This document shows positions 3,033 to 28,939 of a stretch of 30,350 nucleotides of DNA, one piece after another. Both the position numbers and the translations under genes were made by a program. Origin of the DNA: Candidatus Gastranaerophilales bacterium (GTDB lineage: Bacteria > Cyanobacteriota > Vampirovibrionia > Gastranaerophilales > Gastranaerophilaceae). The notes below the pieces were generated by a model. It had not been told where the DNA came from. It saw nothing but the letters and a program-made list of their open reading frames with translations, and did no database searches. How positions within the stretch are numbered: the stretch's first letter is position 1; each line of letters opens with the position of its first letter. The DNA is taken from contig CALUUL010000023.1 in assembly GCA_944323945.1 (NCBI GenBank), forward strand, positions 1 through 30,350, read 5' to 3'.

Positions 3033-3389
3033 ATGACTCAGCGTGCAGAAGCCTTGGAAGTATATTTTTATAAAACAAATTCAGGTAATGAGCCTGTTCG
3101 TGAATGGTTAAAAGATTTACCCAAAGAAGATATGCGTACAATCGGCTTTGATATCAAAACTGTTCAATATGGCTATCCAATTGGTATGCCGTTAACTCGT
3201 GTTCTTCATGGAACTGGTGGTTTGGAGGAAGTTCGCTGTAATATTTCAAACGGTATAGCACGAGTAATTTTCTATGTTGAAGACAATACAATGGTTCTTT
3301 TGCACGCATTTATCAAGAAAACACAGGAAACTCCTAAAAAAGAATTAGATGTTGCTATTAAACGATATAAGGAATTATACAAAAAATAG
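3033..3389 (+). CDS. Gp49/HigB-type toxin of a toxin-antitoxin system (RelE fold)
   Basis: A 118-aa protein that fits the phage-derived Gp49-like family (PF05973), whose members are HigB-like, usually ribosome-dependent mRNA endonucleases. Visible signatures are the N-terminal VYFYKTNSGNEPVREWL, the central LEEVRCN...ARVIFYVED strands and the typical end LLHAFIKKTQETPKKELDVA. Length is normal. The usual partner, a HigA-type XRE antitoxin, normally follows immediately on the same strand. Here the next gene is the ABC-3C effector, and the only HigA-like gene is 3.5 kb away on the opposite strand (6909-7193). No ribosome site precedes the ATG and the -10 ends 6 bp upstream, so the transcript is probably leaderless. 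Confidence 0.85.
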   Translation: MTQRAEALEVYFYKTNSGNEPVREWLKDLPKEDMRTIGFDIKTVQYGYPIGMPLTRVLHGTGGLEEVRCNISNGIARVIFYVEDNTMVLLHAFIKKTQETPKKELDVAIKRYKELYKK

Positions 3390-3495: not shown

Positions 3496-4659
3496 ATGGC
3501 AGATAATAGAAATGACCAAAGTGGATTATACAGTTTGTCAGGCTTTGCTTACCAAATAAAAGTCTTTTTTTATTATGCAATGCTACTAAAAGATGAAAAC
3601 AGTTCTATAGAATTTGAATCATTAGATGATATTGCTATTAAGAATATAGAAAAATTTGACAACTATGACACAACTTTTATTAGTAAAATTGAAGATGAAA
3701 ATTCTACTTATCAAATTATTCAAGTTAAGTATACAAAAATAACTGAAAAGAAAACTAAAGATGTAATATTGCGATGGCTATTAGCGTTAAAAAGCCATTC
3801 TAATATTAAAAAATTTATACTATTTACAGACGAAAAATATTCAAATAATAATTTGATTAACAATATATCTGCAAAAGAATTGTATAGATATGTACTAAGT
3901 GCTAAAAAAGAAAAAGCAAATTCAATCAAAAGTAGGGTTAAAACATTATTCTTTACAGAAGGTACCTATAGAGAGTTTTATAAGTTATTAAAGAAAATAA
4001 AAGATAATATGCATTATATAAGCAATAATGATATTGATGATAACATAAAATCTGTTGCTAGTAATCATTTTAAACGCAAGGCAGTTTCAGAAGTTATTTA
4101 TTGTGCAAGGTTAGTATCTGCTCTAAAAGATATAACTCATAATATTCTGGAAAATGTTTTATTAACAAAGCCCTATATTCTTAATTTAGCGGAATTAAAT
4201 AAGATTGAAGAAAAAATAATACAACATACAAATGAAATAATGCCAATTCCACTATCCTACGCTGAATTCAAAAAGGTAAACACAATTGATATTGATTCTT
4301 ACACACGTAAAAGAGAATATAAACAACTTCAACATTGTGAACTACCATTAACAGGAATTAAAAGGAATTTACAACAATGTTGCTATTATGTTGATTTTAG
4401 ACATAGAATTCTTGCAATGGGCAATCATGAAAAAATTGCCGATATAGAGCTGCAATCCTATGAAAATTTTGAGAGAGTACAAGAAACATTAGCATATAAT
4501 AATAAAGATACTCCTCGCAATAGATTAGATGAAACTCAAAAAATTAAAAATGAAATAGTACCAAAGCCTGAACTTAGCTTAGGGACATATATTTATTTAA
4601 CAAAAGAAAAAGAAATCGTAGGAGAAAATCAAATTTCTTGGAAGGATGAAGATGAATAG
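3496..4659 (+). CDS. ABC-three-component system effector: DUF4297/Cap4-like nuclease with C-terminal ABC-3C domain
   Basis: A 387-aa protein, first of three overlapping genes. The N-terminal third resembles the DUF4297/Cap4-type restriction-endonuclease fold: GFAYQ at 16-20, acidic residues E39, D44 and D45, then a strand ending Q76-V77-K78, the QxK version of the (D/E)xK site. The extreme C-terminus (LGTYIYLTKEKEI...QISW) resembles the C-terminal domain that couples effectors to the middle component and ATPase in ABC-3C systems (described by Aravind and colleagues). By analogy it should cut DNA when the ATPase complex senses invading nucleic acid. The start lacks a strong ribosome site. Architecture supports the call; target and trigger are inferred. 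Confidence 0.75.
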   Translation: MADNRNDQSGLYSLSGFAYQIKVFFYYAMLLKDENSSIEFESLDDIAIKNIEKFDNYDTTFISKIEDENSTYQIIQVKYTKITEKKTKDVILRWLLALKSHSNIKKFILFTDEKYSNNNLINNISAKELYRYVLSAKKEKANSIKSRVKTLFFTEGTYREFYKLLKKIKDNMHYISNNDIDDNIKSVASNHFKRKAVSEVIYCARLVSALKDITHNILENVLLTKPYILNLAELNKIEEKIIQHTNEIMPIPLSYAEFKKVNTIDIDSYTRKREYKQLQHCELPLTGIKRNLQQCCYYVDFRHRILAMGNHEKIADIELQSYENFERVQETLAYNNKDTPRNRLDETQKIKNEIVPKPELSLGTYIYLTKEKEIVGENQISWKDEDE

Positions 4660-5089
4660 TTTAGAAAATGAAGCTGAAGCAATACAACTAAGCATATACT
4701 GCGATATTATATGTCAAATCTTATTTTTGCATAGGAATATTTCAGTGAATAAACTATTACCAATTGCGTACTTACTAAAAAAATATAATTTATACAAAAA
4801 AGCATATACTGCACATGATTCCAATGACTTAGCGTACAAACTGATATCGTTGCTTAATGGAAAATATTCTGACTATTGTCATAATATCAAAATTATATCA
4901 AAGGCCTTACATCTTTTATTATTAAATGAAAATATTACTTTAGAAGATGGTATTTTATTCTTTTTAGAACGAAAAGATAATGCAAAGAAATTTTTGTATG
5001 ATGAAAATACATTCTTTTATAACGCAATTGAAGAATGCAAAAAAATGCCAGAAATTCAATTTTTAAAGGAGATTTTACAAAATGTTTAA
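4652..5089 (+). CDS. ABC-three-component system middle component
   Basis: A 145-aa, mostly helical protein with no motif I can name. Its position between a DUF4297-like effector and an SMC-like ATPase, its size (middle components are about 150 aa) and its helical opening (EAEAIQLSIYCDIICQILFL then VNKLLPIAYLLKKY) fit the middle component of ABC-3C systems, thought to bridge effector and ATPase. The ATG at 4652 is preferred because AAGGA at 4642-4646 sits 5 nt before it; the ATG at 4646 overlaps that site. The gene overlaps the effector stop by 8 bp and the ATPase start by 8 bp, implying coupled translation. Confidence 0.7.
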   Translation: MNSLENEAEAIQLSIYCDIICQILFLHRNISVNKLLPIAYLLKKYNLYKKAYTAHDSNDLAYKLISLLNGKYSDYCHNIKIISKALHLLLLNENITLEDGILFFLERKDNAKKFLYDENTFFYNAIEECKKMPEIQFLKEILQNV

Positions 5090-6878
5090 GATAACAGAGT
5101 TAACATTTTATAATAATTTGGAAGAACCATATAGTTATGAATTTGTTTCAGGGGTAAATTATTTTAAAGGCGAAAATAATTCTGGAAAGACAGTTTTCTA
5201 TAATTTGATTGATTATATGCTAGGCTCCAGCAAAGAAATTAAAAATGAGGAATGGTATAAAAATGTAAAAAAAATAACCATGAAAGTTTCCAATAATGGA
5301 ATTTCGTATATTTTAACTCGAACCAAAAATAAAGATGAGAATTATTTTACAGTAGAAGGAACTACAAATTTTGAGTCAATGCAACCAATTTCTTACAGAG
5401 AATATAAAATAAAACTAGAAAGCATTTTTACCTTGAATGAGTTATTATTAAATAATATAAAAATATTTACTGGGCAGGAATTAACATATCGAACTTTTAC
5501 AATATTTAATTTTTTAGGTGAAAAGCGACAGGGAAATATCCAAGATTTTTTGGATAAAGGTAGAGATATTGAATACTCTGTAAAGCTTCCATCTTTATTA
5601 AATTTCATATTTAATAAGAATTTAAAAAGAATTTTTGAATTGGAAAAAAAACTTGAAAATTTAGAAAAAGAAGTTAAAAAGTTAGAATTAAAGAAAAACC
5701 AATATGATTTTATAGCGAAAGAAATAAATAACAATATTATAATTTTAAACTTGAATATACAGTATAATGGCAAAAATTTAGAGTTGATAAAACAAAGACT
5801 TGAACAATACAAGTTAATGGAAAAAGATACAAAGTCCGTTAATAGCAATAATAAAAATATAACTGAGCTCTCATTAATGCTTGAAAATATTGATGAACAA
5901 TTGAAAACATATCAAAGTTATAAACATGGTATTAAAAATATTGAAAAAGAGAGTAACAATAGGAAAAAATTATTAGTTGCTTTAGATAATATATTAAAGA
6001 ATAACAATGAGTATACATATTTGTTTGATGCAATAAAAAAACTTTTAAATGAGCTAAATACTACCATATCGTTTAGTCAAAATTCCATCTGTGACAAAAC
6101 AATTGATACTTTGCAAAAGCAGAGAGAACTTATTAAAAATGAAATCAAGAAAAATGATTCTAAATTTAAACTATATTCAATAAAGGAAAAAGAAAAAGCT
6201 GTAATTTTACTTGAAAACTATTTAAAACAAAATATAGTCGATTCTAATGAAGAATTAGCAGAAAAAATTTCAAAAATTAAATCTATTAAAGATGAATTGA
6301 TTGAACTTAAAAACAAAGATGACTTAACCAAAATCAATGATTTGTCTGAGTACATAACAAATTTATATAATTCTGCAAAAGATGTTTCAGATTTTGTCAA
6401 GATAGATACCGATAAATCTAAATTCCATATTCGGTATCTTAAAAAAGGTAATATTTTACAACCAGAGATTGAAGAAGTACAAATTATTGAAAAAGGTAAA
6501 AACAAAGAAAAAGTCCAACAATATGTATTAACAAACTACTATACTGGAAGTATGGCTAGACATACTCTAATTCAAATCTGTGGATATTTCGGCTTTTTAA
6601 AACTACTGATAAAAAATGGTGAATACCCTTTAATTCCAATATTTATTGGTGACCATTTATCAAAACCATTTGATGAAAAAAATATTAATGCACTAGGAAA
6701 AGTATTAAATACTGCGATAGAGGACATTGGAAAAGATAATATTCAAATCTTTTTATTTGATGATGAAGAAGCATCTAAATTAGGACTTAATACAGATAAA
6801 ATTATTAATTTAATAGAATATAACAAACATAATCAGAAAGTAAAAACAGGTTTCATACCTTTTTATAAAACTCTTTAA
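5082..6878 (+). CDS. ABC-three-component system ATPase (SMC/RecN-like ABC ATPase)
   Basis: A 598-aa ABC ATPase of the SMC/Rad50 type. Walker A is GENNSGKT (30-37) near the N-terminus. A Lys/Glu/Asn-rich coiled coil spans roughly 180-430. The C-terminal lobe has a degenerate signature (TGSMARHTLIQI) followed by a Walker B-like strand PLIPIFIGDH and SKPFDE. The two ATPase halves pack after the coiled coil folds back. In ABC-3C systems this subunit is thought to sense foreign nucleic acid and license the nuclease. AAGGAG at 5066-5071 sits 10 nt before the ATG, inside the previous gene. AT content is very high, as in the other two genes of the cassette. No clear terminator follows. Confidence 0.85.
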   Translation: MFKITELTFYNNLEEPYSYEFVSGVNYFKGENNSGKTVFYNLIDYMLGSSKEIKNEEWYKNVKKITMKVSNNGISYILTRTKNKDENYFTVEGTTNFESMQPISYREYKIKLESIFTLNELLLNNIKIFTGQELTYRTFTIFNFLGEKRQGNIQDFLDKGRDIEYSVKLPSLLNFIFNKNLKRIFELEKKLENLEKEVKKLELKKNQYDFIAKEINNNIIILNLNIQYNGKNLELIKQRLEQYKLMEKDTKSVNSNNKNITELSLMLENIDEQLKTYQSYKHGIKNIEKESNNRKKLLVALDNILKNNNEYTYLFDAIKKLLNELNTTISFSQNSICDKTIDTLQKQRELIKNEIKKNDSKFKLYSIKEKEKAVILLENYLKQNIVDSNEELAEKISKIKSIKDELIELKNKDDLTKINDLSEYITNLYNSAKDVSDFVKIDTDKSKFHIRYLKKGNILQPEIEEVQIIEKGKNKEKVQQYVLTNYYTGSMARHTLIQICGYFGFLKLLIKNGEYPLIPIFIGDHLSKPFDEKNINALGKVLNTAIEDIGKDNIQIFLFDDEEASKLGLNTDKIINLIEYNKHNQKVKTGFIPFYKTL

Positions 6879-7505: not shown

Positions 7506-8189
7506 ATGGATTATTTAAAAGAATTTATTTCAAAACTTCAAAATTTAGACCATTCAAAACGGGTTGATAATGTATTTCAAGACTTTTTGAAATTAAGTGC
7601 TTATGCAATAGCACAACCATTTTATCGAAGCCCAGAAATTGAGCAAAATTACTTAGATATAATAAACAGATACACTAAAGAGCAAGCAGAAAAATTTTCA
7701 AAACTGCTTGCTCTTTTAGTTATGGGGCTTGAAGAAAAACATCAAGATTTTTTAGGCTGTGTATATATGAAATTAAATTTAGGTAATATTGCTACTGGTC
7801 AGTTTTTTACACCTTATCATGTCAGCAAAATGATGGCAGAGATATGTTTTGTTGATATTGAAAAACAGCTTGAAGAAAAAGATTTTATAACATTATCGGA
7901 ACCTTGCTGCGGTAGTGGTGCAATGATTATTGCATATGCGCAAACGCTTAAAGAACAGGGCTATAATTACCAAAATCAACTATTTGTTGAGGCTATTGAT
8001 ATAGATGAGCTTTGTTTTTTAATGACTTATCTGCAATTATCACTGTATGGAATTCCTGCAAGAGTAATGTTAGGTGATACACTTGCTTGGAAATTTAGTC
8101 AAATGATTTATACACCAATGTATTTTTTAAACGGCTTTTCTTGGCGGTTAAAAGAATTTAAAAAGACTGAAACAAAATCAGAACAATAA
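7506..8189 (+). CDS. N-6 DNA methylase-like protein, small mobile-element type, no NPPY motif
   Basis: A 227-aa protein resembling the SAM-binding half of HsdM-type N6-adenine methylases (PF02384). Visible are GQFFTPYHVSKMMAE, the SAM loop EPCCGSGAMIIAYA and an acidic motif VEAIDIDELC. The catalytic motif IV, (N/D)PP(Y/F), should follow the next strand. Instead the chain reads GDTLAWKFSQMIYTPMYFLNGFSWRLK and ends. Short methylase-like proteins of this shape occur on conjugative and integrative elements. It may be inactive or use another site. No HsdS or HsdR gene is near. The two small genes 3' of it on the same strand may share its transcript. Function is therefore unsure. Confidence 0.75.
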   Translation: MDYLKEFISKLQNLDHSKRVDNVFQDFLKLSAYAIAQPFYRSPEIEQNYLDIINRYTKEQAEKFSKLLALLVMGLEEKHQDFLGCVYMKLNLGNIATGQFFTPYHVSKMMAEICFVDIEKQLEEKDFITLSEPCCGSGAMIIAYAQTLKEQGYNYQNQLFVEAIDIDELCFLMTYLQLSLYGIPARVMLGDTLAWKFSQMIYTPMYFLNGFSWRLKEFKKTETKSEQ

Positions 8190-8292
8190 CTTATAAAAGA
8201 AACCGTAGAGGTAAGGCAATTAAGCCTATTTTAGCTATGCCACAATCTGACATGGGTGTATTGCATAATAAAAACACAAAGGAACAAAATAT

Positions 8293-8742
8293 ATGGCAGA
8301 ATATCATTGGTACAAATTAAAGAAAAAACTTAAAAGTATCGTAGCACCAAGCTTAGATATATCTTTCAATTATAGCCCTCTAAGAAAGAGAACAAATCGG
8401 AGTGAAATAACTTTGAGGTTTTTTCAAGTAAAACTTAATGATGAAATAATTTGGCAATTTCCAAAAGATACAAGTCAAACAATAGATGAAAACTTTATTT
8501 ATGGACAAGCTAAGATTGACAACAAACTTATCAATATAGAATTTCCAATTCAATCAATAATAGCTTATCTTAATTTACCTAAAAACAAACTGCTTGATTA
8601 TATAGACAAAGCGGGTTTGGCTGAAATTTTAAAAGTTTGCGATAAAAGAATTGGCTATAATCGGTTAAAAAAATTGCAATTATCAGGGGTGGGACAAAAG
8701 ATTTTTAATAAGAGATTCATGAATAAGGAGTATTGCTTATGA
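8293..8742 (+). CDS. Hypothetical protein, possibly SF0329-like
   Basis: A 149-aa basic protein. The opening HWYKLKKKLKSIVAPSLD and the later KVCDKRIGYNRLKKL resemble, from memory, the SF0329 family pattern (W-KLKK near the start, D-R-R-x-G-x-R-L near the end), whose function is unknown. AAGGA lies 8 nt before the ATG. The stop overlaps the next start as ATGA, so the two genes are translationally coupled. It follows the methylase-like gene after about 100 bp. I cannot assign a function. Confidence 0.6.
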   Translation: MAEYHWYKLKKKLKSIVAPSLDISFNYSPLRKRTNRSEITLRFFQVKLNDEIIWQFPKDTSQTIDENFIYGQAKIDNKLINIEFPIQSIIAYLNLPKNKLLDYIDKAGLAEILKVCDKRIGYNRLKKLQLSGVGQKIFNKRFMNKEYCL

Positions 8743-9176
8743 CAAATAGCAAATTAAAAATGGATGATTTATATCAAATATTTGATGAAAACGGACAACA
8801 TAAGCTAAATAAATTTTCAACAGAACCTAAAGCTGAATTCGACATTGATTTTTCTATAGAAAAATTAGAAGTTTTTGTAATTATACCTGAATTAACAAAG
8901 ATTAGTACAAATAAAGTTATAGGCTCACTTGAAAATGCCAGATATGAACTTATCTTATCAAAAGATTTTAAAATCTCATCTGATTTTCAAACGGTAATAA
9001 TTGATGAAATAAAACATTCAATACCGAATTTTTTTAATAGAAAAATGATTCAAAAAGAAGATAAAAACACTTGGGAAATAATTTTTAGACAAATTCTTCA
9101 AAAAGAAATATTTGATGAAATTCAAAAACAAAAAGAATTGCAAACCGAACGCATAAGAAATTTGAGATTACGGTGA
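8739..9176 (+). CDS. Hypothetical protein
   Basis: A 145-aa protein with alternating charged and beta-prone segments in the middle (about 35-70) and a Gln/Lys/Glu/Arg-rich helical end (EIQKQKELQTERIRNLRLR). No family is recognised. The ATG at 8739 is chosen over the TTG at 8733 because AAGGAG (8725-8730) stands 8 nt before it. It overlaps the previous stop by 4 bp (ATGA), so both proteins are probably made together and may interact. Confidence 0.65.
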   Translation: MTNSKLKMDDLYQIFDENGQHKLNKFSTEPKAEFDIDFSIEKLEVFVIIPELTKISTNKVIGSLENARYELILSKDFKISSDFQTVIIDEIKHSIPNFFNRKMIQKEDKNTWEIIFRQILQKEIFDEIQKQKELQTERIRNLRLR

Positions 9177-9203: not shown

Positions 9204-9290
9204 ATAAACAGGCAAGCGTTTCGCTTTATGCCACGAATAACAAATAGTGATAACTCCGTTCACTCCCTGCGGTCGTGAACACAAAAATCC
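9204..9290. other. Structured non-coding stretch beside the reverse transcriptase gene
   Basis: Two hairpins stand close together. One is built on GGCAAGCG-TTT-CGCT with a further TGCC closing around it after a small bulge; the other on GTTCAC/GTGAAC around an 11-nt G+C-rich loop. This patch is richer in G+C than its surroundings. It could be a 3' untranslated structured RNA linked to the RT gene, or filler typical of mobile elements. I cannot choose between these. Confidence 0.3.
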
Positions 9291-9294
9291 AAGT

Positions 9295-9318
9295 CCGGCT
9301 TTATTTTAATAGAGCCGG
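9295..9318. terminator. Bidirectional terminator at the end of the RT gene
   Basis: A 10-bp stem: CCGGCTTTAT (9295-9304) pairs with ATAGAGCCGG (9309-9318), one G-T pair, 4-nt loop. It includes the RT stop codon. T-rich runs follow on both strands (TTTTT about 8 nt away on the minus strand, TTTCTTGATTTTTT on the plus strand), so it could end both converging transcripts. Confidence 0.7.
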
Positions 9319-10185
9319 TTTCTTGATTTTTTGAAAAGACGGAAAAGAGATTTTGTATTTTTCCAAAAGTTTTTCATTATATAATTTTAATCTGATGTAA
9401 AAACCGTAATCAACATATTTAATATACGCAATTTTCCCCGTAAGTTTTGATACTTCTTTTTCGGTCCATATATGGTGTTTCAAATCTTTTGTTGTAGAAT
9501 ATGCCATACTTATGACATAATTATGCAACGAAGCTCTGATTCTTCTTTTTTCTTCATTAGTAATACAAGCATCCTTGTTATTAACAACAAGCCCCAATAC
9601 TTTTTGCTGTTTATTTTTGCTTATGTATTTGGTCTTTTTTGAATTAACTTTGTAACCGTAAAAGAATAAAATATTTTTTACTCTCTTTTCAATGATTTGC
9701 AAGAGTTTTTTATTATTGGATGAAAATGTTAAATCATCCATAAACCTTGAAAAATCCACACCATAAATATTACAGAGCCTTCGTATTTCATCTTCTGTTT
9801 TTTTAAAGCAAGCATTTGCAATATGCGCAGAAGTTGGAGCTCCTGTTGGCAATTTTTTATCAACAGTAACCAAATTCAAATAATAATTTGTATCAGCATT
9901 TTTAATCTTTGTACATACTTTTTGTATAAATCTTTCTATATCAGAATAAGGCACAGAATTATAAAAATCCTTGATATCCATTTTTAAAATCCATTTTTTT
10001 GCTGTGTGAATTTGTGCTGCGTTATATGTATCTGTTTTTAATTTATATTCCCATTTTATAGCATTTAAAATATATTTTTGAGCCTTTTTTAGTTTTTCAC
10101 AAGGAGCCAAAATTATACGGTTTTTTATTCTGAAAACTGTATAGTAAAATCCTGAGCTTATGAATACTTTATTAAAATACATCAT
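9301..10185 (-). CDS. Retron-like reverse transcriptase
   Basis: A 294-aa RNA-directed DNA polymerase. The RT blocks run in order: R-I-I-x-A-P-x-x-x-L-K-x-x-Q (23-36), LKMDIKDFYNSV with catalytic D70, LPTGAPTSAHIAN (112-124), FSRFMDDLTFS with D150 and D151 (FMDD in place of YADD), and KVLGLVVN (195-202). Short length and the GAPTS block fit retron/Abi-like RTs rather than group II intron or DGR RTs. It departs from canonical retron RTs: VLG stands where VTG is usual, and NAAQIH (55-60) is a near miss of NAxxH. The start overlaps the end of the DnaB-like gene by 14 bp, with GGAG 10 nt before the ATG. No obvious msr/msd lies directly upstream. Confidence 0.85.
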   Translation of the reverse strand: MMYFNKVFISSGFYYTVFRIKNRIILAPCEKLKKAQKYILNAIKWEYKLKTDTYNAAQIHTAKKWILKMDIKDFYNSVPYSDIERFIQKVCTKIKNADTNYYLNLVTVDKKLPTGAPTSAHIANACFKKTEDEIRRLCNIYGVDFSRFMDDLTFSSNNKKLLQIIEKRVKNILFFYGYKVNSKKTKYISKNKQQKVLGLVVNNKDACITNEEKRRIRASLHNYVISMAYSTTKDLKHHIWTEKEVSKLTGKIAYIKYVDYGFYIRLKLYNEKLLEKYKISFPSFQKIKKPALLK

Positions 10186-11002
10186 AATGAATTGGCTCCA
10201 AAAATTTTGCGATTGGACTTCTAAATAACAATTCTATTGTACATACTGTTCCCATCTTGTTTTTTGCAATAATTATTTCAGCTTTGCCTTTATTTAAGGC
10301 ATCAGCATTATAATATTCATCTCTATAGATAAACATAACTACATCCGAGATATTTTCAATATCACCGCTTTCTTTTAAATCAGAAAGGATTGGACGTTTG
10401 TCACATCTGCTTTCTAATGCTCGTGAAAGTTGTGAATTAATAAAAACAATGCAATTATTTTGTTTTGCAATTTTCTTTAAATCGAGTATTATATTTGCAA
10501 TAGCTTCACTGCGTTGTTTTTTGCGTGGTATATCAATTAACTGTAAATAATCAATAAAAACATATTCAGGTTTTTCTGTTTCAATTCTGCTAAGAATTTC
10601 TTCAATTTTGTATGTGTCATCAAATATTGAAAGGTTACAACTTGATATAATATCCAGTGCTGTTTTTATATTTTCTTTATTTTTATCATCTAAAACATTA
10701 GGGTTGTTTAAGCTGAATAATCCTATTTCACCAATATGAGCTATTAGCCTTTTTAAATACTGACTTGTACTCATTTCTAAAGAAAATAGCAGACATTTTT
10801 TATTCTGTTTTAAAAAATTATATAAAATAGATGTCATAAATGCTGTTTTGCCTATAGCAGGTCGTCCACCTATAGTAATTAAAACACCTTTTTCCACCCC
10901 TGATAATACAGCGTCTAAATCTCTAAAACCAGTGTTCAGCATATCAGTTTTTTCTTCTGTAATTTGTTTAAATGTTTTTTCTAAAATTTCTTTGTCTATC
11001 AT
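10172..11002 (-). CDS. DnaB-type RecA-fold replicative helicase domain (no N-terminal DnaB domain)
   Basis: A 276-aa protein covering only the C-terminal ATPase domain of DnaB. Visible are Walker A GRPAIGKT (46-53), catalytic Glu in SLEMS (76), Walker B FIDYLQL with D151, the SQLSRALESR strand with Q191, and DLKESGDIENISD (208-220). Bacterial DnaB is about 450 aa, so the primase/loader-binding N-terminal domain is missing, as in some phage and element helicases. AAAGGAG lies 7 nt before the ATG. It overlaps the RT gene, so both products are made together. A 5'-3' ring helicase or an ATP-driven partner of the RT are both possible. Confidence 0.88.
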   Translation of the reverse strand: MIDKEILEKTFKQITEEKTDMLNTGFRDLDAVLSGVEKGVLITIGGRPAIGKTAFMTSILYNFLKQNKKCLLFSLEMSTSQYLKRLIAHIGEIGLFSLNNPNVLDDKNKENIKTALDIISSCNLSIFDDTYKIEEILSRIETEKPEYVFIDYLQLIDIPRKKQRSEAIANIILDLKKIAKQNNCIVFINSQLSRALESRCDKRPILSDLKESGDIENISDVVMFIYRDEYYNADALNKGKAEIIIAKNKMGTVCTIELLFRSPIAKFLEPIHYDVF

Positions 11003-11031
11003 TTTGGTTCTCCTTTGCTGTAATTATTGCA

Positions 11032-11045
11032 TTGACCTATGTCAA
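11032..11045. promoter_or_regulatory. Small palindrome before the helicase gene
   Basis: TTGACCTATGTCAA is an inverted repeat (TTGAC/GTCAA, 4-bp spacer) in the 57-bp gap between the tyrosine recombinase stop and the helicase start. It may be an operator. A perfect TTGACA is present on the minus strand, but no well-spaced -10 is clear. Confidence 0.35.
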
Positions 11046-11059
11046 TTTTGGTCATAGGT

Positions 11060-11623
11060 TTACAAATCTAAACCCAAATACACATCATCCATTTCATCTT
11101 GTGTGATTCCTATATAGCGTAAGGTTACGGCAGTCGAAGAATGATTGAATAGCTTTTGAATGATTGCTATGTCGTAGCCATTATTATATGCGTGATAACC
11201 AAAAGTCTTTCTTAGAGTATGTGTTCCTATCTTTTCTTTTATACCGACAGATTTTGCAACATCATTAATGATTTTATAAGCTTGTTGTCTTAATAAAAAG
11301 CCTCTATTCTTTCTTGATATGAATAAAGGCTCATTTTCTTTATAATTTCTTGTTTTTAGATATTCTTTTATTGCTTGCTTTGTTTTTTCTGATAGTGGAA
11401 AATCTTTAAATTTATTTGTTTTTTTCTCTCGAAGCCTAATCCTATCTTTAATCTTACCATTTTCAGTTACATCAATTACTTGTAATTTCAACAAATCACT
11501 TATTCTTAAGCCTGAATTAATCCCAAGAACAAACAAGCAATAATCTCTTAGATTTTGCTGTTTTAAAAGCTTTTTGATTGTTTCAATCTGTTTTAAATTT
11601 CTAATTGGTTGTACAAATTCCAT
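11060..11623 (-). CDS. Tyrosine recombinase (XerC/D-like integrase), catalytic domain
   Basis: A 187-aa phage-integrase-family protein with nearly the whole catalytic set: R40 (SGLRISDLL), K near 67 (REKKTNK), H135 and R138 (THTLRKTFG), H161 (LFNHSS) and the nucleophile Y170 (LRYIGI). It is shorter than typical integrases (300-400 aa) and lacks the arm-binding and most of the core-binding domain. Such short forms often act as resolvases or inverters. The ATG at 11623 is chosen because GAGGT lies 7 nt before it. It heads a minus-strand run with the helicase and RT, under a promoter region with AATAATACA palindromes. Confidence 0.88.
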   Translation of the reverse strand: MEFVQPIRNLKQIETIKKLLKQQNLRDYCLFVLGINSGLRISDLLKLQVIDVTENGKIKDRIRLREKKTNKFKDFPLSEKTKQAIKEYLKTRNYKENEPLFISRKNRGFLLRQQAYKIINDVAKSVGIKEKIGTHTLRKTFGYHAYNNGYDIAIIQKLFNHSSTAVTLRYIGITQDEMDDVYLGLDL

Positions 11624-13625: not shown

Positions 13626-13655
13626 TACGACACAATTTGACATACTTGTGTCGTA
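13626..13655. promoter_or_regulatory. 10-bp inverted repeat between nuclease and WYL regulator
   Basis: TACGACACAA (13626-13635) and TTGTGTCGTA (13646-13655) are perfect inverted repeats with a 10-nt spacer, starting immediately after the nuclease stop. It may be a terminator (weak T-rich tail), an operator for the WYL protein, or both. Confidence 0.65.
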
Positions 13656-13686
13656 TTATTTATTATATAGAAGTTGGTAAAAAGAT

Positions 13687-14658
13687 ATGTCAAGATTAAC
13701 AAAAGCGGAACAAATAATTGAACTTGCAATGATGTTTCAAAACAGTTATTGCGGTTTATGTATTGATGATATTAAAGAGCATTTTGAATGTTCAAGGCGT
13801 TCGGCAGAACGCATGAAAATGCTTTTGTTTGATATGTTTCCAGATAAGATTGAAGAAGTTCCGACATCCGACAAGAAAAAACGTTGGAGATTTGTTAAAG
13901 GAACGGCTAACATGCTGATTTCATTTACTCCAGATGATTTTGCAAATCTTGAATACTTAAAAGGCTTATCAAATGACGAAAATAAAAAGCAACAGCTCGA
14001 TGAACTTGTTGCTAAGATTAAGGCTTTGACACCCCAAAAGAATTTAAGAACTCTTGATACAGATGTATCTGCAATAATGGAATCGGAAGGTTTTGCAGTA
14101 AGGCAATATTCCCGAGTAAAAGCAGATATGAAAGTATTAGAAAAATTAAGAACGGCAATGCTTGCTTTTAAAAAGATATGTTTTGAATATCAGATAAATG
14201 GTGAAAATAAGACAATTACTATAAATCCTTATGGGCTAGTTATAGCAGATAAATATTATTTAGTTGCGTTTAACGATTATGTAAATGCATTAAGGCAATA
14301 CAGAGTCGATAAAGTATGCAACCTTATTATTTTAGATGAGTATTTTGAAAAAGATGAAAAGTTTTCTCTAATAGATTATTGTAACAATTCATTCGGGGTT
14401 TATCAAGAAAAGCCTTTAAATATAACACTGGAATTTGATAAAGCCGTTGCAGAAGATGTGCTTAATTATCATTTTCACCCGACACAGAAGATGAAACTAC
14501 TTGAAAATGGCAATATAGAAGTTAAATTCACATCGGGTGGAACTTATGCAATATGTCAGGAGCTTTTTAAATGGGGTTGTGATGTAAAAATTAAAAAACC
14601 TGCAGAACTAAAAACTTACTATAAACAATATTTATCCGATGTTTTGAATAATCAATAA
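13687..14658 (+). CDS. WYL-domain transcriptional regulator
   Basis: A 323-aa protein with an N-terminal winged HTH (DIKEHFECSRRSAERMKMLLFDMF, about 27-51), a WYL domain (about 153-215, with NPYGLVIADKYYLVAF and RQYRVDKV) and a C-terminal WCX-like extension (LNITLEFDKAVAEDVL onward). This layout and length match YafY/BrxR/CapW-type regulators, which often repress defence operons until a ligand binds the WYL pocket. It follows the PD-(D/E)XK nuclease gene by 61 bp, across the 10-bp inverted repeat. The ribosome site is weak. Control of the adjacent nuclease is an inference from position. Confidence 0.9.
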   Translation: MSRLTKAEQIIELAMMFQNSYCGLCIDDIKEHFECSRRSAERMKMLLFDMFPDKIEEVPTSDKKKRWRFVKGTANMLISFTPDDFANLEYLKGLSNDENKKQQLDELVAKIKALTPQKNLRTLDTDVSAIMESEGFAVRQYSRVKADMKVLEKLRTAMLAFKKICFEYQINGENKTITINPYGLVIADKYYLVAFNDYVNALRQYRVDKVCNLIILDEYFEKDEKFSLIDYCNNSFGVYQEKPLNITLEFDKAVAEDVLNYHFHPTQKMKLLENGNIEVKFTSGGTYAICQELFKWGCDVKIKKPAELKTYYKQYLSDVLNNQ

Positions 14659-15779: not shown

Positions 15780-16655
15780 ATGTCAAATGTTGACATTTAC
15801 AGGCAATGGGGACAGTTTGCCATATTTCCTTGTAAGGGAAATTCAAAAATACCTGCAACTCGTAATGGATTCAAAGATGCTAAATTTGGGCAAGATATAG
15901 AATCCATAGTTAATCTTGGCTACAATATTGGTCTAGCCTGCGAAAAATCTGGAGTTATTGTTATTGATGTTGATTATCATGATGAAAATTCTACAGCTAT
16001 GGACGATTTAAAACAGCTAGAAATAGAGCTTGGGGCACAATTACCACTTACTTTAACTCAAGCAACTGCAAGCGGTAATGGCAGACATCTGATTTATTCT
16101 GCAAAGGGAATCATTTCACCTAAAGGGAAAATTGGTAAATTCTGTGATATAAAGTATAACGGCTATATTATTATATCGCCATCTGCTATTAATGGGAGTC
16201 AGTATGAAATTATAGATGGCATTGATAAAAGTGGCAGGTTTATAATAGCGGATTTACCACACGCGTGGCTTGATTACATTAATAAGACCGCTAAAAACTC
16301 AAAGACAATGGCTTATAACGATACAGATACCTCTGAAAATAAGATTTACACTAACATTAACATTGAAAGAATGTTTAATAATTGTGCATTTTTGCAGTTT
16401 TGCAGAGATAATGCAGAAAATTTACCTGAGCCTATGTGGTATTCAATGATTACTGTTCTTGCTCAAATTAAAGATTCGGATGAACTGATTCACAGGCTAT
16501 CCGAGCCTTATTATGGTTACAGTTATGATGAAACACAGAAGAAAATCGATTATGCCCGTCAATTCGGACATGCTCAAAGCTGTAAATATTTATCAGTAAA
16601 TTATCAAGAAGTATGCAAAGACTGCCATTCAGCAGTATCAGAAAGGTTGGTGTAA
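15780..16655 (+). CDS. Bifunctional primase-polymerase (PrimPol) domain protein
   Basis: A 291-aa protein with an N-terminal archaeo-eukaryotic-type PrimPol domain (PF09250). The metal site VIDVDYH (D63, D65), the SGNGRHLIY stretch with H103, and D123 followed by IKYNGYIIISPS are all in the expected order. It should lay down primers, and possibly extend them, at the element's origin. The C-terminal part (about 200-291) carries EPMWYSMI and Cys/His-bearing ARQFGHAQSCKY...CKDCHS, as in primase-C-terminal linkers of plasmid and phage proteins. GGAG precedes the ATG by 6 nt. The helicase gene starts 2 bp after its stop, so the two form one unit. Confidence 0.9.
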   Translation: MSNVDIYRQWGQFAIFPCKGNSKIPATRNGFKDAKFGQDIESIVNLGYNIGLACEKSGVIVIDVDYHDENSTAMDDLKQLEIELGAQLPLTLTQATASGNGRHLIYSAKGIISPKGKIGKFCDIKYNGYIIISPSAINGSQYEIIDGIDKSGRFIIADLPHAWLDYINKTAKNSKTMAYNDTDTSENKIYTNINIERMFNNCAFLQFCRDNAENLPEPMWYSMITVLAQIKDSDELIHRLSEPYYGYSYDETQKKIDYARQFGHAQSCKYLSVNYQEVCKDCHSAVSERLV

Positions 16656-16657
16656 TT

Positions 16658-18586
16658 ATGACTGATGTCGCAAGCAAAAATAAAGTACAAGCGGGTAAAA
16701 ATCCGCTTGTACAAGGTAAAAAGACAATTTTTGACTTCTATGAAGAACATAAAAAACTACTTGATACATTGTCTTTTATCTCTACAGTAAACATAAACTA
16801 TAATGCAGAAGACTACAATTTGACAAATCAGAATAAGTTTATGTATCAGGTGTGTAATCAAACGTTTTTAATTTCAAAGAAAAAAGGTAAGTTGAGTATA
16901 AAGTTAGTAGCTAATTTTATTATTGTTAATGTCAAAGAATGCATTTTTTTTTATAACGATAAAAGCGGTAAAAAACCATTAAAATATTATATTATCACGC
17001 TAAAAAACCATAATGGAAAAATCGAAAAAGACATCGAAATTACTGGAAACTCAAAGACAGACTTTAAACAATTTCAAACGTCAATAAATAATAAATTAAA
17101 TGATTTTGTTATTAATATGAATGAAGCCGAGTTTAAAACTTTTGTAGCTGAATACATATCACCTAAAGTCGCTTCAAACGTAATAATATACAAAAATGCA
17201 GGTGTAACTCCAAATGGTAATTTATTGTATGAAAATGCTCTTGCTACACCAAATGGAATTACATGGATTGATGAGGACGGTTATATAAAAATAGGTGAAA
17301 ATTCATATATAAAGCTTGCAGAAGCTGATCACTATCTCCCTAAGCTGGCAAAAACCCTAAAAACTGGGGAACAAATCGCCAATGAGTTAATAACTAACCT
17401 TATAAAATGTTGGAGCGAAAATATTATATTACCATTGATTGTGCTAGGGCATATGATTATGGCTATATATTACGAAGAATTTATTAAGCGTTACGGCTGC
17501 CCTACTTTAGTTCTTTATGGGGAAACAGGTACTGGAAAATCAACACTTGTTACTGTTGGTCTTGCAATATTTGGACTATCAAGAGACGCATTAACCTCAG
17601 GTGGTTCTACTGCAAAAAGTAATGAATATTTTAGCTCGAATTATAACGGAATGAACCTATGTATTGATGATGTAAAAGGCGAGACTCTTAATTCAAGCAA
17701 CTTTACAGCTCTAATTAAAGGAGTATACAAAGGAATTCCCCGTACTAGAATGCTACCATATGGAAAAGGTGTAGAATATATTCATACTTGTAGTCCGCTT
17801 GCCTATTCGACTAATGAGGCTCTACCGGATCTGCAAGAAGTTGTAAATAGACTGAATATTGTCGAAATTTTTGGAAAAACTTTCAAGGCTGATAAGTTTA
17901 AATATCATGAAGTTGACAAAGGCAACAGTGATAATATTAAAGAGCTTTCATTGATTCTGCCTGAAGTTTTAAAAATATCAAAAGAAGATGTAATTCAGTT
18001 ATATGAACAAGTTTTTGAAATGCTTGAAAATAAGGTTCAAGACACGCAAAAACGTGTTATTAACAATATTGCATATGCATATACCGGAGCATTATTATTG
18101 CTTAAAACAGCTGATATTAGCATTGATGAGCTGGAAAACAAGGTCATTGAATATACAAAAGAGCAAATAGCAAACTACGAAAACATAAAAACACCTGTTG
18201 AAAAAGTCTTTGATGGTATTATAAGTTTAACTAAATTAGGACTGTTAAAACTTGGTGAACATTTTAAAATAGTTGATAGCGAATTTGAAGGGATTCCTGA
18301 AACTCATCTTCTCTTTCATAAAGATTTAATTTTAAGTACAATAAATAAATATTATGCTTATGATAAATCAAAGCAGATAGATGAGAAAAAGTTTTCAGCC
18401 TATGCGAAAAACCATAAACGTTATAGAAGTGGTAACCATAGTACTAGATATAGCAATGACATGGATAAAGTTATTGGCTCAATGTGTTTTAATATTTCTG
18501 GTATTAATGATTTTGTCAGTATTAGTCAGCATGGCATTATGACATATCAAGATTTAGTTAAAGCTACGCAAGGTAATAAAATGTAA
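16658..18586 (+). CDS. DUF927/SF3-like replicative helicase
   Basis: A 642-aa protein. After an N-terminal region of about 260 residues without a known domain come Walker A GETGTGKST (288-296) and Walker B NLCIDDVKG (333-341), with AYSTNEALPD as a likely sensor strand. The arrangement matches the DUF927 helicases that accompany PrimPol-type primases on plasmids, prophages and satellites. It should unwind the element's DNA during autonomous replication. The ATG at 16658 is chosen over an upstream start inside the PrimPol gene. The ribosome site is weak, so reinitiation after the PrimPol stop is likely. A strong terminator follows. Confidence 0.85.
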   Translation: MTDVASKNKVQAGKNPLVQGKKTIFDFYEEHKKLLDTLSFISTVNINYNAEDYNLTNQNKFMYQVCNQTFLISKKKGKLSIKLVANFIIVNVKECIFFYNDKSGKKPLKYYIITLKNHNGKIEKDIEITGNSKTDFKQFQTSINNKLNDFVINMNEAEFKTFVAEYISPKVASNVIIYKNAGVTPNGNLLYENALATPNGITWIDEDGYIKIGENSYIKLAEADHYLPKLAKTLKTGEQIANELITNLIKCWSENIILPLIVLGHMIMAIYYEEFIKRYGCPTLVLYGETGTGKSTLVTVGLAIFGLSRDALTSGGSTAKSNEYFSSNYNGMNLCIDDVKGETLNSSNFTALIKGVYKGIPRTRMLPYGKGVEYIHTCSPLAYSTNEALPDLQEVVNRLNIVEIFGKTFKADKFKYHEVDKGNSDNIKELSLILPEVLKISKEDVIQLYEQVFEMLENKVQDTQKRVINNIAYAYTGALLLLKTADISIDELENKVIEYTKEQIANYENIKTPVEKVFDGIISLTKLGLLKLGEHFKIVDSEFEGIPETHLLFHKDLILSTINKYYAYDKSKQIDEKKFSAYAKNHKRYRSGNHSTRYSNDMDKVIGSMCFNISGINDFVSISQHGIMTYQDLVKATQGNKM

Positions 18587-18600
18587 TTACTCATGAATTA

Positions 18601-18643
18601 CACCTCAAAGGTAATCCAGTGTTATCTTTGGGGTGCATTTTTA
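18601..18643 (+). terminator. Intrinsic terminator after the helicase gene
   Basis: CACCTCAAAGGTAA (18601-18614) pairs with TTATCTTTGGGGTG (18622-18635) over 14 bp with two wobble pairs and a 7-nt loop, followed by CATTTTTATG. It ends the PrimPol-helicase transcript. Confidence 0.85.
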
Positions 18644-18700
18644 TGTGCCGTAATTTTGTAATACAAAAAATTAATTAAAAATAAAAAATAAAAAATAAAA

Positions 18701-18862
18701 ATGTTAACATTAAAAGCTGATGATATAACAATCAATATACTGCAAAATAGCTCTCAAAGTACCTCTGAGAGAGATTTTGAGTTACTTGTTGATTATGTCA
18801 GCACAATTCAAGAAATATTTAACGATACAAAACTTCATGAAAATTTTGCAAGTCAAAAGTAG
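18701..18862 (+). CDS. Small hypothetical protein (53 aa)
   Basis: A 53-aa reading frame, MLTLKADDITINILQNSS to a TAG at 18860-18862, acidic and probably alpha-helical (ERDFELLVDYVSTIQEIF). No ribosome site is seen: the start follows a run of A-rich repeats. It fills the gap between the replication genes and the serine recombinase on the same strand. Size and position suit a small accessory such as an excisionase or antitoxin, but no family is recognised. Confidence 0.4.
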   Translation: MLTLKADDITINILQNSSQSTSERDFELLVDYVSTIQEIFNDTKLHENFASQK

Positions 18863-18893
18863 ATAAGTTAAAATTAGACTAGAGGTCAAGAAA

Positions 18894-20546
<1,653 letters not shown>

Positions 20547-24948: not shown

Positions 24949-26238
24949 TTATTTATAAAATTGTCTAACACCTGTAGTGAAATCATTTACAATATCACCA
25001 TTGCCAAATAATTTATATTTATAAATAGTTAATCCTTCCAGACCAACCGGACCTCTTGCATGTGTTTTATTTGTTGATATACCGACTTCAGCGCCAAAAC
25101 CATATCTAAAACCATCCGCAAATCTTGTAGAAATATTTTTATATACACCGGATGAATCAACAAACATCATAAATTTTTCCGCATTTAAATCATTTTCTGT
25201 AATAATGCAATCAGTATGACCAGATCCATATCTATTTATATGTGAAATAGCATCATCAATATTTTCAACAATTTTTAATGATAATTTTTTTTCGCCATAT
25301 TCTTTATGCCACTCAGTGACAACAGAACTTATTTCATTTAAATATTCATTTTTTAATTCTTCGTCAGAATTAATAACTACAGAATTTTCTTTTAAAGATT
25401 TAAGAAGACGAGGAAGAAATTTATCTTTTATATTTTTATGAACAAGAACAGTCTCTACAGAATTACAAGCACTAGGATACTGGCATTTTGCATCAACAAT
25501 AACCGGAATAGCTTTATCTATATCAGCAAACTCATCAACATAAATATGACAAATACCGTCAGCGTGACCTAGCACAGGAATTTTTGTATTTGACTTAATA
25601 AAACTAACAAGAGAATTTGAACCTCTTGGTATAATTAAATCAATGTATTTATCTGCATCAAGCATTTTTTTTACATCTTCACGAGAAAATATAAGGTTTA
25701 TCATATTTGCAGGAAAATTATCAATTTCTAAAAGTGTAGAAGTAATAATGTTAAATATAGCTGTATTTGTTTTTTCTGCTTCAGAACCACCTTTTAATAT
25801 AACAGCATTAGATGATTTTATAGCTAAAGCAGAAATTTGAGAAATAACATCAGGTCTGGCTTCAAAAATAACACCAATAACACCTATAGGACAACTTACT
25901 TTTTTTAAATTTATTCCTTGCGCTATATCTTTTTCCCAAATAACTTTACTTATTGGATCATCAAGAGAAGCAATATCTCTAACACCTTGAATCATGTCTC
26001 TAAGCTTGTTTTCATCAAGCTTTAATCTATTATAGGCAGACTGAGTAATTTCACCTTTTTCTAACAATAATTTCGCATTATCTAAATCTAGATTATTAGC
26101 AGATATAATTTCATGTTTATTTATGTTTATAGCATCTGCAATTTTATACAAAGCATCATTCTTTATTTTTGTAGATAATTGTAATGCTAAAATTGATGCT
26201 TCTTTTGCTTTTTGAGCAATTTCTATTACATTAGACAT
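24949..26238 (-). CDS. proA: Gamma-glutamyl phosphate reductase
   Basis: A 429-aa enzyme of the aldehyde-dehydrogenase fold that reduces gamma-glutamyl phosphate to glutamate-5-semialdehyde with NADPH, the second step of proline synthesis. Signatures include PIGVIGVIFEARPDV, LKGGSEA, IPRGSN, DGICHIYVDE and the catalytic Cys region YPSACNSVETVLVH, plus FGAEVGISTNKTHARGPVG near the end. Length is normal. AGGAG lies 7 nt before the ATG. The gene starts 9 bp after the proB stop on the same strand, so proB and proA are co-transcribed. Confidence 0.97.
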   Translation of the reverse strand: MSNVIEIAQKAKEASILALQLSTKIKNDALYKIADAININKHEIISANNLDLDNAKLLLEKGEITQSAYNRLKLDENKLRDMIQGVRDIASLDDPISKVIWEKDIAQGINLKKVSCPIGVIGVIFEARPDVISQISALAIKSSNAVILKGGSEAEKTNTAIFNIITSTLLEIDNFPANMINLIFSREDVKKMLDADKYIDLIIPRGSNSLVSFIKSNTKIPVLGHADGICHIYVDEFADIDKAIPVIVDAKCQYPSACNSVETVLVHKNIKDKFLPRLLKSLKENSVVINSDEELKNEYLNEISSVVTEWHKEYGEKKLSLKIVENIDDAISHINRYGSGHTDCIITENDLNAEKFMMFVDSSGVYKNISTRFADGFRYGFGAEVGISTNKTHARGPVGLEGLTIYKYKLFGNGDIVNDFTTGVRQFYK

Positions 26239-26247
26239 TGATATCTC

Positions 26248-27369
26248 CTACAATAATGCTATATTATCTTTAGTTACAACAGCATCATAATTTTTATGAC
26301 CTAAAATTTGAAAAATATTATCAGAATGCTCACCAATAATTTTTTTACAGTCTTCAGAATTGTAATTTGCGATGCCTCTTGCAAACTCAACGTTATTTTC
26401 ATCAACAATAGAAACAACATCTCCGCAATCAAAAGAACCATTAATTTTCAAAATACCAATAGCAAGTAAGCTTTTATTCTTTTCTGTAATTGCCTTTTTA
26501 GCACCAAAATTAATTACAATCTGCCCATTAATATTAGTTGCATAAGCAATCCACCTGCGTTTTTGAGAAAGCTGTTCTACAGGGTAAAAAGTTGTTCCTA
26601 TTTTCTCACCTGAAAATAATTTGGTTATAACTTGCGGCATTTTACCATTAGCTATTTTTACACATCCACCAGAGTGAGTTACAACTTTTGCTGCTTGAAG
26701 TTTTGTTTTCATTCCACCACGTCCACCTTTTGAAGCAGATTGTGCATAACTTTCTATTTCTTCTGTGATTTCTTTTACATCACTTATTAAATTTGCTTTT
26801 GGATTTTCCTTCGGATTATCATCATACAAACCATTTATATCAGATAATATTACTAATAAATCCGCATCTAACTTACTAGCTACGAGTGCTGACAATTTAT
26901 CATTATCAGAAAAACTTACACCATATATTGGCTCTAATTCAGATGTAGATACAGTATCATTTTGATTAATAATCGGTATAACTTTAAGTTCAAGCAAAGT
27001 ATTTAAAACATTACTCAAACTTAAATATTTTATTCTGTTAGTAAAATCATCTTCAGTTAATAAAACTTGAGCAGTATTAATTGAATATTTTCCAAAACCA
27101 TCTTCATAAATAGACATTAATTGACATTGACCAACAGCCGCACATGCCTGTTTTATTGATAAACTTTCACTTGAATCAACATTTAGTTTTTTTGAACCCA
27201 AACCAACAGCACCTGATGTAACAACAATTATTTCTTTTCCTTGTCTATGTAATTTAGAAATTTCTTCAATAAAAGAATATACACGTGATAAAGAAATTTC
27301 TTTATCATCATTTCTCAGAACATTAGTTCCAAACTTAAAAACAATCCTTTTTGCATCATTGATATTCAT
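26248..27369 (-). CDS. proB: Glutamate 5-kinase
   Basis: A 373-aa enzyme that phosphorylates glutamate at the gamma-carboxyl to start proline synthesis. An amino-acid-kinase domain (VFKFGTNVLR, VVTSGAVGLG, INQNDTVS, FSDNDKLSALVA, KGGRGGMKTKLQAA) is followed from about residue 270 by a PUA domain (SIVDENNVEFARGIANY). Both domains are present, as in typical feedback-inhibited enzymes. No ribosome site precedes the ATG. A minus-strand TATAAT (27382-27377) ends 7 bp before it, with TTGCAA 16 bp further upstream inside the previous gene's end, so proBA may be transcribed as a leaderless mRNA. Confidence 0.97.
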   Translation of the reverse strand: MNINDAKRIVFKFGTNVLRNDDKEISLSRVYSFIEEISKLHRQGKEIIVVTSGAVGLGSKKLNVDSSESLSIKQACAAVGQCQLMSIYEDGFGKYSINTAQVLLTEDDFTNRIKYLSLSNVLNTLLELKVIPIINQNDTVSTSELEPIYGVSFSDNDKLSALVASKLDADLLVILSDINGLYDDNPKENPKANLISDVKEITEEIESYAQSASKGGRGGMKTKLQAAKVVTHSGGCVKIANGKMPQVITKLFSGEKIGTTFYPVEQLSQKRRWIAYATNINGQIVINFGAKKAITEKNKSLLAIGILKINGSFDCGDVVSIVDENNVEFARGIANYNSEDCKKIIGEHSDNIFQILGHKNYDAVVTKDNIALL

Positions 27370-27404
27370 ATGATTTATTATAGCTTAAACCTTATTCATT
27401 GCAA
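27370..27404 (-). promoter_or_regulatory. Candidate leaderless proB promoter
   Basis: On the minus strand TTGCAA, a 16-bp spacer and TATAAT (27382-27377) end 7 bp before the proB ATG. The -35 lies within the last codons of the upstream gene. Confidence 0.5.
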
Positions 27405-28834: not shown

Positions 28835-28939
28835 AAACACACCCCATTTTGCAGAAATAAATTACTTATGTAGTAAAATTATCATAAATACTACAAGTTT
28901 AATAGTCTTAAAATACATATATTTAAAAAAGATTTACAA

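Follow-up and report, generated by a model that had tools for sequence, protein, structure and literature searches.

This study concerns a 30,350-nt stretch of DNA, here called the window (contig CALUUL010000023.1 of assembly GCA_944323945.1, from a Candidatus Gastranaerophilales bacterium), in which the gene for a retron-like reverse transcriptase (RT) follows that for a protein built on the motor domain of the helicase DnaB and is faced by the gene of a conserved small RNA. An initial annotation had described three minus-strand genes head to tail, encoding a tyrosine recombinase, the DnaB-like protein and the RT, of which the last two overlap by 14 bp; the positions of the open reading frames and the Pfam names agree with this, and the shared bases are 10172-10185. 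That annotation had also ended the run in a terminator. A hairpin does lie there, but it is the 3' end of the small RNA on the plus strand, which had been overlooked. The strands and order of the three genes stand as described, but a single operon is not required, as DnaB has an operator and -10 box of its own. The features are as follows.

9301-10185, minus strand: retron-like RT, 294 amino acids (Pfam RVT_1, 75.8 bits)
10172-11002, minus strand: DnaB C-terminal (RecA-like ATPase) domain protein, 276 amino acids (Pfam DnaB_C, 231 bits)
11060-11623, minus strand: tyrosine recombinase, 187 amino acids from an ATG start (Pfam Phage_integrase, 105.5 bits); its longest open reading frame opens at TTG, 11653
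11023-11056, minus strand: operator TATGACCAAAATTGACATA (11038-11056) and -10 box AATAAT (11023-11028), 9 nt apart, of the DnaB-RT operon
9210-9330, plus strand: conserved small RNA of about 115 nt, convergent to the RT (23-row alignment, covariation, covariance model)
9211-9232, plus strand: RNA hairpin 1, with a UUU triloop
9258-9280, plus strand: RNA hairpin 2, variable
9290-9325, plus strand: RNA hairpin 3 and terminator, extending over the final 25 bases of the RT gene

The pairing of an RT with a DnaB-type ATPase, which the initial annotation did not know as an arrangement and wished to see checked in homologues, proved to be real and conserved. When genome contigs were searched by profile, with the RT family alignment as query, 31 loci were obtained. 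Clade 1 (n = 28) consists of 26 full RTs with at least 44% identity to that of the window (L007-L032), the window itself and a locus of genome G321 (L071), with the RT remnants L034 and L036 kept apart from the count. Clade 2 (n = 8; L120, L121, L123-L126, L075 and L077) came from a search of 286 Gastranaerophilales genomes; where measured, its RTs have about 34-39% identity to the window RT and the family as a whole about 34-99%. Copies of the same locus were left out (L001, L048, L049, L051-L054, L056, L058-L070 and L072) or counted under their longer copies (L073, L074, L076 and L078); one assembly gave both L027 and L028, and another both L015 and L019. In all 36 family loci (28/28 in clade 1 and 8/8 in clade 2) the gene immediately upstream of the RT is a DnaB_C gene, and the two genes overlap or are separated by 2-18 nt except in L124, where the gap is 62 nt. 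By comparison, DnaB adjoins the RT in none of 12 further RT loci that these searches brought up (L033, L035, L037 and L079-L087; for L033 and L079-L087 the upstream DNA read was about 0.25-1.3 kb only), and the seven of these that were scanned (L033, L035, L037, L079, L080, L081 and L084) score as typed retrons. In a tree with unknown root and flagged long branches, 32 RTs linked to DnaB group together (support 100/98), apart from 12 other RTs, which are eleven of the comparison loci (without L086) plus the second RT of L031 and amount to 11 different sequences. The distances of RT and DnaB are closely correlated (r = 0.952 for 32 of the 36 loci, a value reached in 0/2000 permutations), and dN/dS was 0.09-0.17 for the RT, where it could be computed in 13 of 14 pairs, and 0.04-0.35 for DnaB, where all 14 gave a value. 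As comparison of the loci shows, the two genes are inherited together, and both are, on these ratios, under purifying selection.

A set of 292 genomes drawn from the phylum gave 10 positives, all of them already among those found in Gastranaerophilales, and two scans of viral contigs gave no relative. RTs in phage records (42 records, the 20 listed having 23-33% identity) and in plasmid records (163 records, the 15 listed having 23-33%) were all below 60% identity. A literature search of titles and abstract openings, with the principal retron classification and most paywalled articles outside its reach, returned no DnaB-type partner for a retron-like RT, and no account of Gastranaerophilales RTs.

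Hidden Markov models, PDB relatives and the predicted fold all agree with the first description of the RT as retron-like, and by its sequence and predicted fold the enzyme is on the retron side. Its AlphaFold model (pLDDT 88) returned retron RTs in all of Foldseek rows 1-18, retron RTs also come first among the PDB sequence relatives, and the structures of DRT2 and DRT9, like that of a diversity-generating retroelement RT (ranked 23rd), fall below all retron RTs. With NCBIfam models the window RT reaches 162 bits for retron_St85_RT, below the curated cut-off of 235 bits, and 41 bits for Drt3a and 24 bits for Drt5, far below theirs. The group II intron model TIGR04416 gives 41.7 bits against a cut-off of 300, and Rfam at gathering scores finds two tRNAs only in the window and no intron RNA. 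As judged by model scores, the RT fits no PADLOC retron type clearly: 25 listed families (retron RT models plus one called RT_other) each match 36/36 members, the best model for the window RT is RT_II-A with 152 bits, and two clade-2 RTs score 157-179 bits with the type models, compared with 328-514 bits for the seven other RTs with their best type. No UG or DRT model is among the best 25 of the 59 PADLOC matches, and no DnaB partner is named among the models of PADLOC-DB 2.0.0 that matched. The catalytic residues D70, D150 and D151 are present, as the initial annotation had them, and are invariant over the 36-row family alignment; it had also read the motifs VLG and FMDD correctly, the relatives usually having YVDD or YMDD at the second. 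Across the family V/I-L-G takes the place of VTG, and A57 and H60 are invariant with the N of NAxxH replaced.

The DnaB-like protein carries Walker A (GGRPAIGKT) and Walker B (VFIDYLQL) sequences in a motif check, and the best Foldseek matches of its model (pLDDT 90) are chains of DnaB hexamers; against the ATPase domain of the phage helicase G40P (3bh0) the TM scores are 0.89/0.87. In a comparison with 12 full-length DnaB proteins of other Gastranaerophilales genomes, clade-1 proteins share 40-49% identity with their best match and clade-2 proteins 31-37%. The protein differs from the replicative helicase in being paired with an RT and in lacking the N-terminal domain: it has 276 amino acids compared with the 460-470 of those 12 Gastranaerophilales proteins, and the alignment begins behind their N-terminal domain. 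The motor domain is preceded by a helix (residues 4-15), at the place where DnaB has its linker helix. Mixed rings with the replicative helicase are thinkable.

Behind the stop codon of the RT lies a stretch that is conserved across the loci and reads as a gene on the opposite strand. The usual order is an operator, exactly 9 nt, TATAAT, 9 nt, hairpin 1, a single-stranded stretch, hairpin 2, hairpin 3 and a U-rich tail. The triloop of hairpin 1 is mostly NUU (AAU in L031, AUA in L121 and L123), the single-stranded stretch is AYGAAUAA in most copies and ACGGUAAA-like in L019, L022-L024 and L026, and hairpin 2 is variable in sequence and 6 to about 20 bp long. The operator of the RNA promoter, a motif read by eye and scored without a shuffle control, scores at least 10/15 in 33 of the 36 copies, and an exact TATAAT stands exactly 9 nt from it in 21/36. 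The window RNA folds with a z of -4.06. Over hairpins 1 and 3, 98.0% of 357 cells are paired and 28 cells are changed on both sides, each figure being matched in 0/500 shuffles, as was the covariation score of 0.280 (0.171 in shuffles; 0/500 as high); when the partner columns were slid by 1-3, pairing fell to 33-51%. The RNA is placed on the plus strand of the window because of its promoter, its terminator and an excess of G-U cells on that strand (15, against 5 C-A/A-C cells, in 23 rows); folding energy is similar on both strands and does not settle the matter.

A covariance model of this RNA (R1) matches the window, one of the model's own rows, with 112.6 bits and finds the RNA near the RT in 27/28 clade-1 loci. 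In clade 2 it does so in 4/8 loci at E<1e-4; in L120 and L126 (E 0.019 and 0.22) the layout is recognisable by eye as the same, and L077 stops at a contig end, with an RNA copy (L055) on another contig of the same genome. No full R1 match was obtained in the 12 other RT loci, the best partial one (E 0.031) being in L033. Across the 286 genomes, an RNA match (E<=1e-5) was present in 18 of the 21 with the RT (E<1e-60) and in 2 of the 265 without it; 14 of these 18 genomes had given rows to R1, and G228, G312, G321 and G352 had not. The two RNA-positive genomes without the RT are G225, from which the RT has been deleted, and G385, whose match (L057, E 5.3e-6) was rejected as false, being by eye a terminator behind the apparent end of a ribosomal protein gene. 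The RNA also occurs apart from the pair, as the genome of L029 carries it elsewhere (L118) and that of L031 has a second copy (L119). These orphan copies (L118:3217-3362 and L119:3725-3867) have a long, mutually similar hairpin 2 and lie near WYL genes, with no DnaB or RT within the 6.5-7.5 kb read. In L012, L027 and L028 an extra gene of 174-196 amino acids stands between RT and RNA (L012:3384-3974, L028:6840-7364), with weak MvaI/BcnI or GIY-YIG matches below the cut-off in L028 and none in L012. A non-coding RNA upstream, as in ordinary retrons, was looked for by eye up to 220 nt before DnaB in 29 loci and set aside, as only the operator, the -10 box and a ribosome site recur there.

The recombinase, by contrast with the initial annotation, which made it a working part of the module and a possible means of circularising its product, is judged to be a neighbour, as few DnaB loci have it complete and as DnaB is served by a promoter of its own, whose operator and -10 box fall between the two genes. 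Of the DnaB loci that were read, the window, L009, L010, L034 and L122 have the complete gene, and only its 3' end precedes DnaB in L007 (at the contig start) and L008; all of the recombinase-bearing DnaB loci are close relatives. There was no evidence in these loci for a role in circularisation.

The operator is shared more widely. In the form TATGNCMNNANTTGACRTA (at least 12/15) with a -10 box 8-10 nt on, it occurs 135 times in 369 kb from 32 sequences, compared with 20 in letter shuffles, a count that is not an independent test because the motif was read by eye from the same sequences. It often stands at gene starts, including those of WYL, DnaB, RNA, nuclease, SF0329-family and other genes. 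Two further features of the window belong here.

13687-14658, plus strand: WYL-domain regulator (Pfam WYL and WCX)
13626-13644, plus strand: operator of the WYL regulator gene, with its -10 box at 13654-13659

The form TATGNCM..TGACRTA, 9 nt from the -10 box, is found in the window at 8236-8269 (plus), 11023-11056 (minus) and 13626-13659 (plus) and in many of L010-L036 and L122-L126, and is not found before the window's small RNA. WYL cluster c2 is present in 19 of the 32 loci read, the window included, and the island neighbours include PD-(D/E)XK, McrBC, HipA, AAA and N6-methylase genes. On account of the shared operator at gene starts and of these defence-like neighbours, defence is the likely role and the WYL protein the likely regulator of the island. 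The initial annotation had left the choice between defence and a replication aid open. Defence is the favoured half of that pair, and an aid to replication is less likely because nuclease, restriction-like, HipA and methylase genes adjoin, several behind the same operator, because the scans of viral contigs gave no relative, and because the window element has its own primase-polymerase.

Some DnaB genes have lost their RT. There are 19 DnaB places at E<1e-100 in Gastranaerophilales, 15 with an intact RT, one with an RT interrupted by a single stop (G100 = L008) and three without: in G225 (L122) the RT is deleted, in G123 (L034) its first 60-70 residues remain and in G124 (L036) there is a remnant. 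In pattern checks, the DnaB of L034 fails G-x-RP-x-x-GKT, reading SGRPSI, and that of L036 fails SDL-x-x-SG. A second species, G579 (L127), has the same RT deletion as G225, in whose locus L122 the DnaB-RNA stretch spans 5135-6139. Between G225 and G579 the dS of DnaB is 0.018, with 5 differences in 849 bases, and the RNA has 4 differences in 126; as they are such close relatives, long-term upkeep of DnaB without RT is not demonstrated by them. The DnaB of this lineage matches clusters P0186 (335 contigs, 95% identical) and P0188 (34 contigs, 100%), and no RT cluster has more than 9 contigs among the 120 listed of 322; the wider spread of the DnaB clusters suggests that the RT-less form may be common.

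We propose, with about even confidence, that the locus is a WYL-regulated, three-part, retron-like antiphage module of RT, DnaB-type ATPase and RNA of about 115 nt, for which we infer synthesis of cDNA and action of the helicase. Comparison across the loci shows that the three parts occur together and that DnaB-RT and the RNA have the same promoter architecture in most of them. The RT would probably use the RNA, and the module is probably antiviral in its purpose; that the RT makes DNA is somewhat less certain, if still on the favourable side, and that the DnaB ring acts as effector and strikes at replication is plausible at rather less than even weight. In such a module the RT would bind the RNA through hairpin 1 and the single-stranded stretch that follows. 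Classic retron RTs recognise a UUU-loop stem next to the priming G, and hairpin 1 would presumably fit such a stem. The RT would then copy the variable hairpin 2 into short DNA, and the resulting RT-RNA-DNA complex would keep the DnaB-like ring at rest; infection would upset this complex, upon which the ring may engage replication forks or the replicative helicase and halt DNA replication. A further-reaching version, which we offer tentatively and consider doubtful, is an RT immune system with a free-standing convergent RNA gene that may act in trans, and with RT-made DNA setting a DnaB-like ring that poisons or blocks forks; orphan RNA copies are present in two genomes, one of which has no copy in cis. 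We know of no earlier RT system directed at the helicase, and here a retron-type RT would work without a1/a2 repeats.

Several observations weigh against the three-part module. The RNA promoter has no operator in the window, L008 and L009. Two of the counts over the RNA alignment are less striking than those above, as 6 pairs with changes on both sides were equalled in 18/500 shuffles and 12 further pair types in 499/500, and hairpin 2 alone passes in only 17/23 sequences (no more than 5/100 shuffles as stable), failing in L009, L011, L014, L019, L023 and L032, at a threshold that is noisy because L009 fails with the same letters as the passing window. The clade-1 matches of R1 are in 23/27 cases its own rows, the others being near copies (L007 and L028) or independent (L012 and L071), and R1 finds no adjacent RNA in L029 and L124, which have the RT. 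The search for a1/a2 repeats, between the 25 nt before hairpin 1 and the region around and behind hairpin 3, gave a longest terminal complementarity of 7.3 bases on average over 30 copies compared with 7.2 in shuffles, and no priming G was identified in the RNA. The DnaB frames are still open in loci whose RT has been deleted or has decayed (G225 = L122, G579 = L127, L034 and L036), and in G225 and G579 the RNA is retained as well; a DnaB that is toxic without RT is disfavoured by these open frames, which also tell against the ring as effector. L124, the locus with 62 nt between the genes, has a shorter DnaB whose end diverges from the family and is also without the RNA, and it may be decaying in the opposite direction, from the DnaB side.

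Other explanations for the data rearrange the roles of these parts. The DnaB-like ring could, as the initial annotation proposed, be a handler of cDNA that loads on, unwinds or protects RT-made DNA or feeds it to a replication fork. This would suit DnaB as the primary gene, for the RT is never without DnaB in the 36 loci and DnaB outlives loss of the RT, and it would suit the retained ATPase fold and Walker motifs; we nevertheless regard it as unlikely, in that no second effector is constant, the nuclease, AAA and other neighbours differing between loci, and the short hairpin proposed would offer less single-stranded DNA than a helicase needs. Slightly less likely again is that the small RNA serves as a regulator of the DnaB-RT operon, or as a partner of DnaB only, and is not a template or ligand of the RT. 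Three points speak for regulation: the RNA is convergent and in the window runs into the 3' end of the RT gene, it persists beside DnaB in G225 and G579 although their RT is deleted, and a1/a2 are lacking. Against it, the loci with a gene between RT and RNA (L012, L027 and L028) have no overlap with the RT gene, the orphan copies L118 and L119 are in genomes with an RT elsewhere, and the shared promoter architecture points to co-expression.

Two readings start from mobility. That the run is left over from the replication or integration functions of a mobile element, made of recombinase and helicase with the RT as cargo, is improbable: the window region is mobile (Prim-Pol, DUF5906-like protein and a serine recombinase over tRNA-Asn), but DnaB-RT is kept in loci without the recombinase, neither viral-contig scan gave a relative, and strict pairing with correlated distances does not fit cargo. 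It is very improbable that the three hairpins form a folded DNA recombination site of the attC kind for the tyrosine recombinase, which adjoins them in the window. The element does fold on either strand with similar energy, but the recombinase is absent from most loci that have the element, a promoter and U-rich terminator are present, and the 15 G-U cells on the RNA strand outnumber the 5 C-A/A-C cells, which would be G-U on the other strand.

Among known systems, Retron Eco1 (Ec86) is the best PDB relative of the window RT both by sequence (E 2.2e-32) and by fold (TM 0.74, 24% identity). Both have an RT, an RNA and a partner protein, and RT_II-A, the best PADLOC model for the window RT, is the type to which Ec86 belongs. 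The partner of Eco1 is a nucleoside deoxyribosyltransferase-like protein, whereas here it is a DnaB motor domain. The RNA here lies downstream, on the other strand, behind its own promoter and without a1/a2, and the RT has VLG for VTG and A57xxH60 without the N. NAxxH and VTG are described as conserved in Eco1 and Eco2 in a structural study of 2025 (PMC12405507), and a review gives the retron plan as a single msr-msd-RT transcript (PMC8867640). The conserved RNA, which here comes after the RT, is read from the other strand and has its own promoter, is not part of such a transcript. Filing the system as a retron is disfavoured because it has no NAxxH or VTG, no single msr-msd-RT transcript and no a1/a2. 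The models of other typed retrons (X, III-A, XIII, VI, I-A and others) match all 36 members, and none clearly fits. DRT2, DRT9 and DRT10 are described as RTs with a neighbouring non-coding RNA in defence (PMC12632851). The RNA beside the RT is a likeness to these systems; unlike theirs, the RT here is on the retron side (162 bits with the St85 model versus 41 with Drt3a and 24 with Drt5).

The window also contains a Prim-Pol gene (15780-16655), a gene for a weakly DUF5906-like protein (16613-18586) and a large serine recombinase gene (18894-20546), the end of which overlaps tRNA-Asn (20433-20506, minus); 15780-20546 is probably a mobile element that has integrated here and houses the defence genes. 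Ordinary genes over 5.2 kb (24949-30151) match Gastranaerophilales genomes, with G321 the best at 74-75% identity, and the window is probably Gastranaerophilales chromosomal DNA with an integrated element. G001, the nearest genome by shared words, matches it at two short stretches only. Window-like DNA is also carried by L007 (CASFHD010000018.1), a 15-kb contig filed under a Christensenella bin; this is probably a binning error, as the chromosomal genes of the window match Gastranaerophilales and G001 matches at just those two stretches. On the plus strand at 3496-6878 is a three-gene cluster, with an AAA_23/SMC-like ATPase last and no Pfam match for the other two genes, which is possibly a further defence system. 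Behind the RNA, at 7506-9176 (plus), are an N6-methylase-like gene, an SF0329-family gene and one gene of unknown kind, which also adjoin DnaB-RT in some close relatives. A Gp49-like (DUF891) gene at 3033-3389 (plus) is possibly a HigB-type toxin.

The pair described here adds the motor of a replicative helicase to the proteins that travel with retron-type RTs, and the place, strand and ends of its RNA break the usual retron plan. These loci would escape retron finders that expect the msr-msd ahead of the RT. If the module works, it would test whether RNA-primed synthesis depends on a1/a2 and on NAxxH and VTG, and whether a helicase ring can be controlled by DNA that an RT has made. The common operator is a handle on the switching of a whole defence island in gut Gastranaerophilales.

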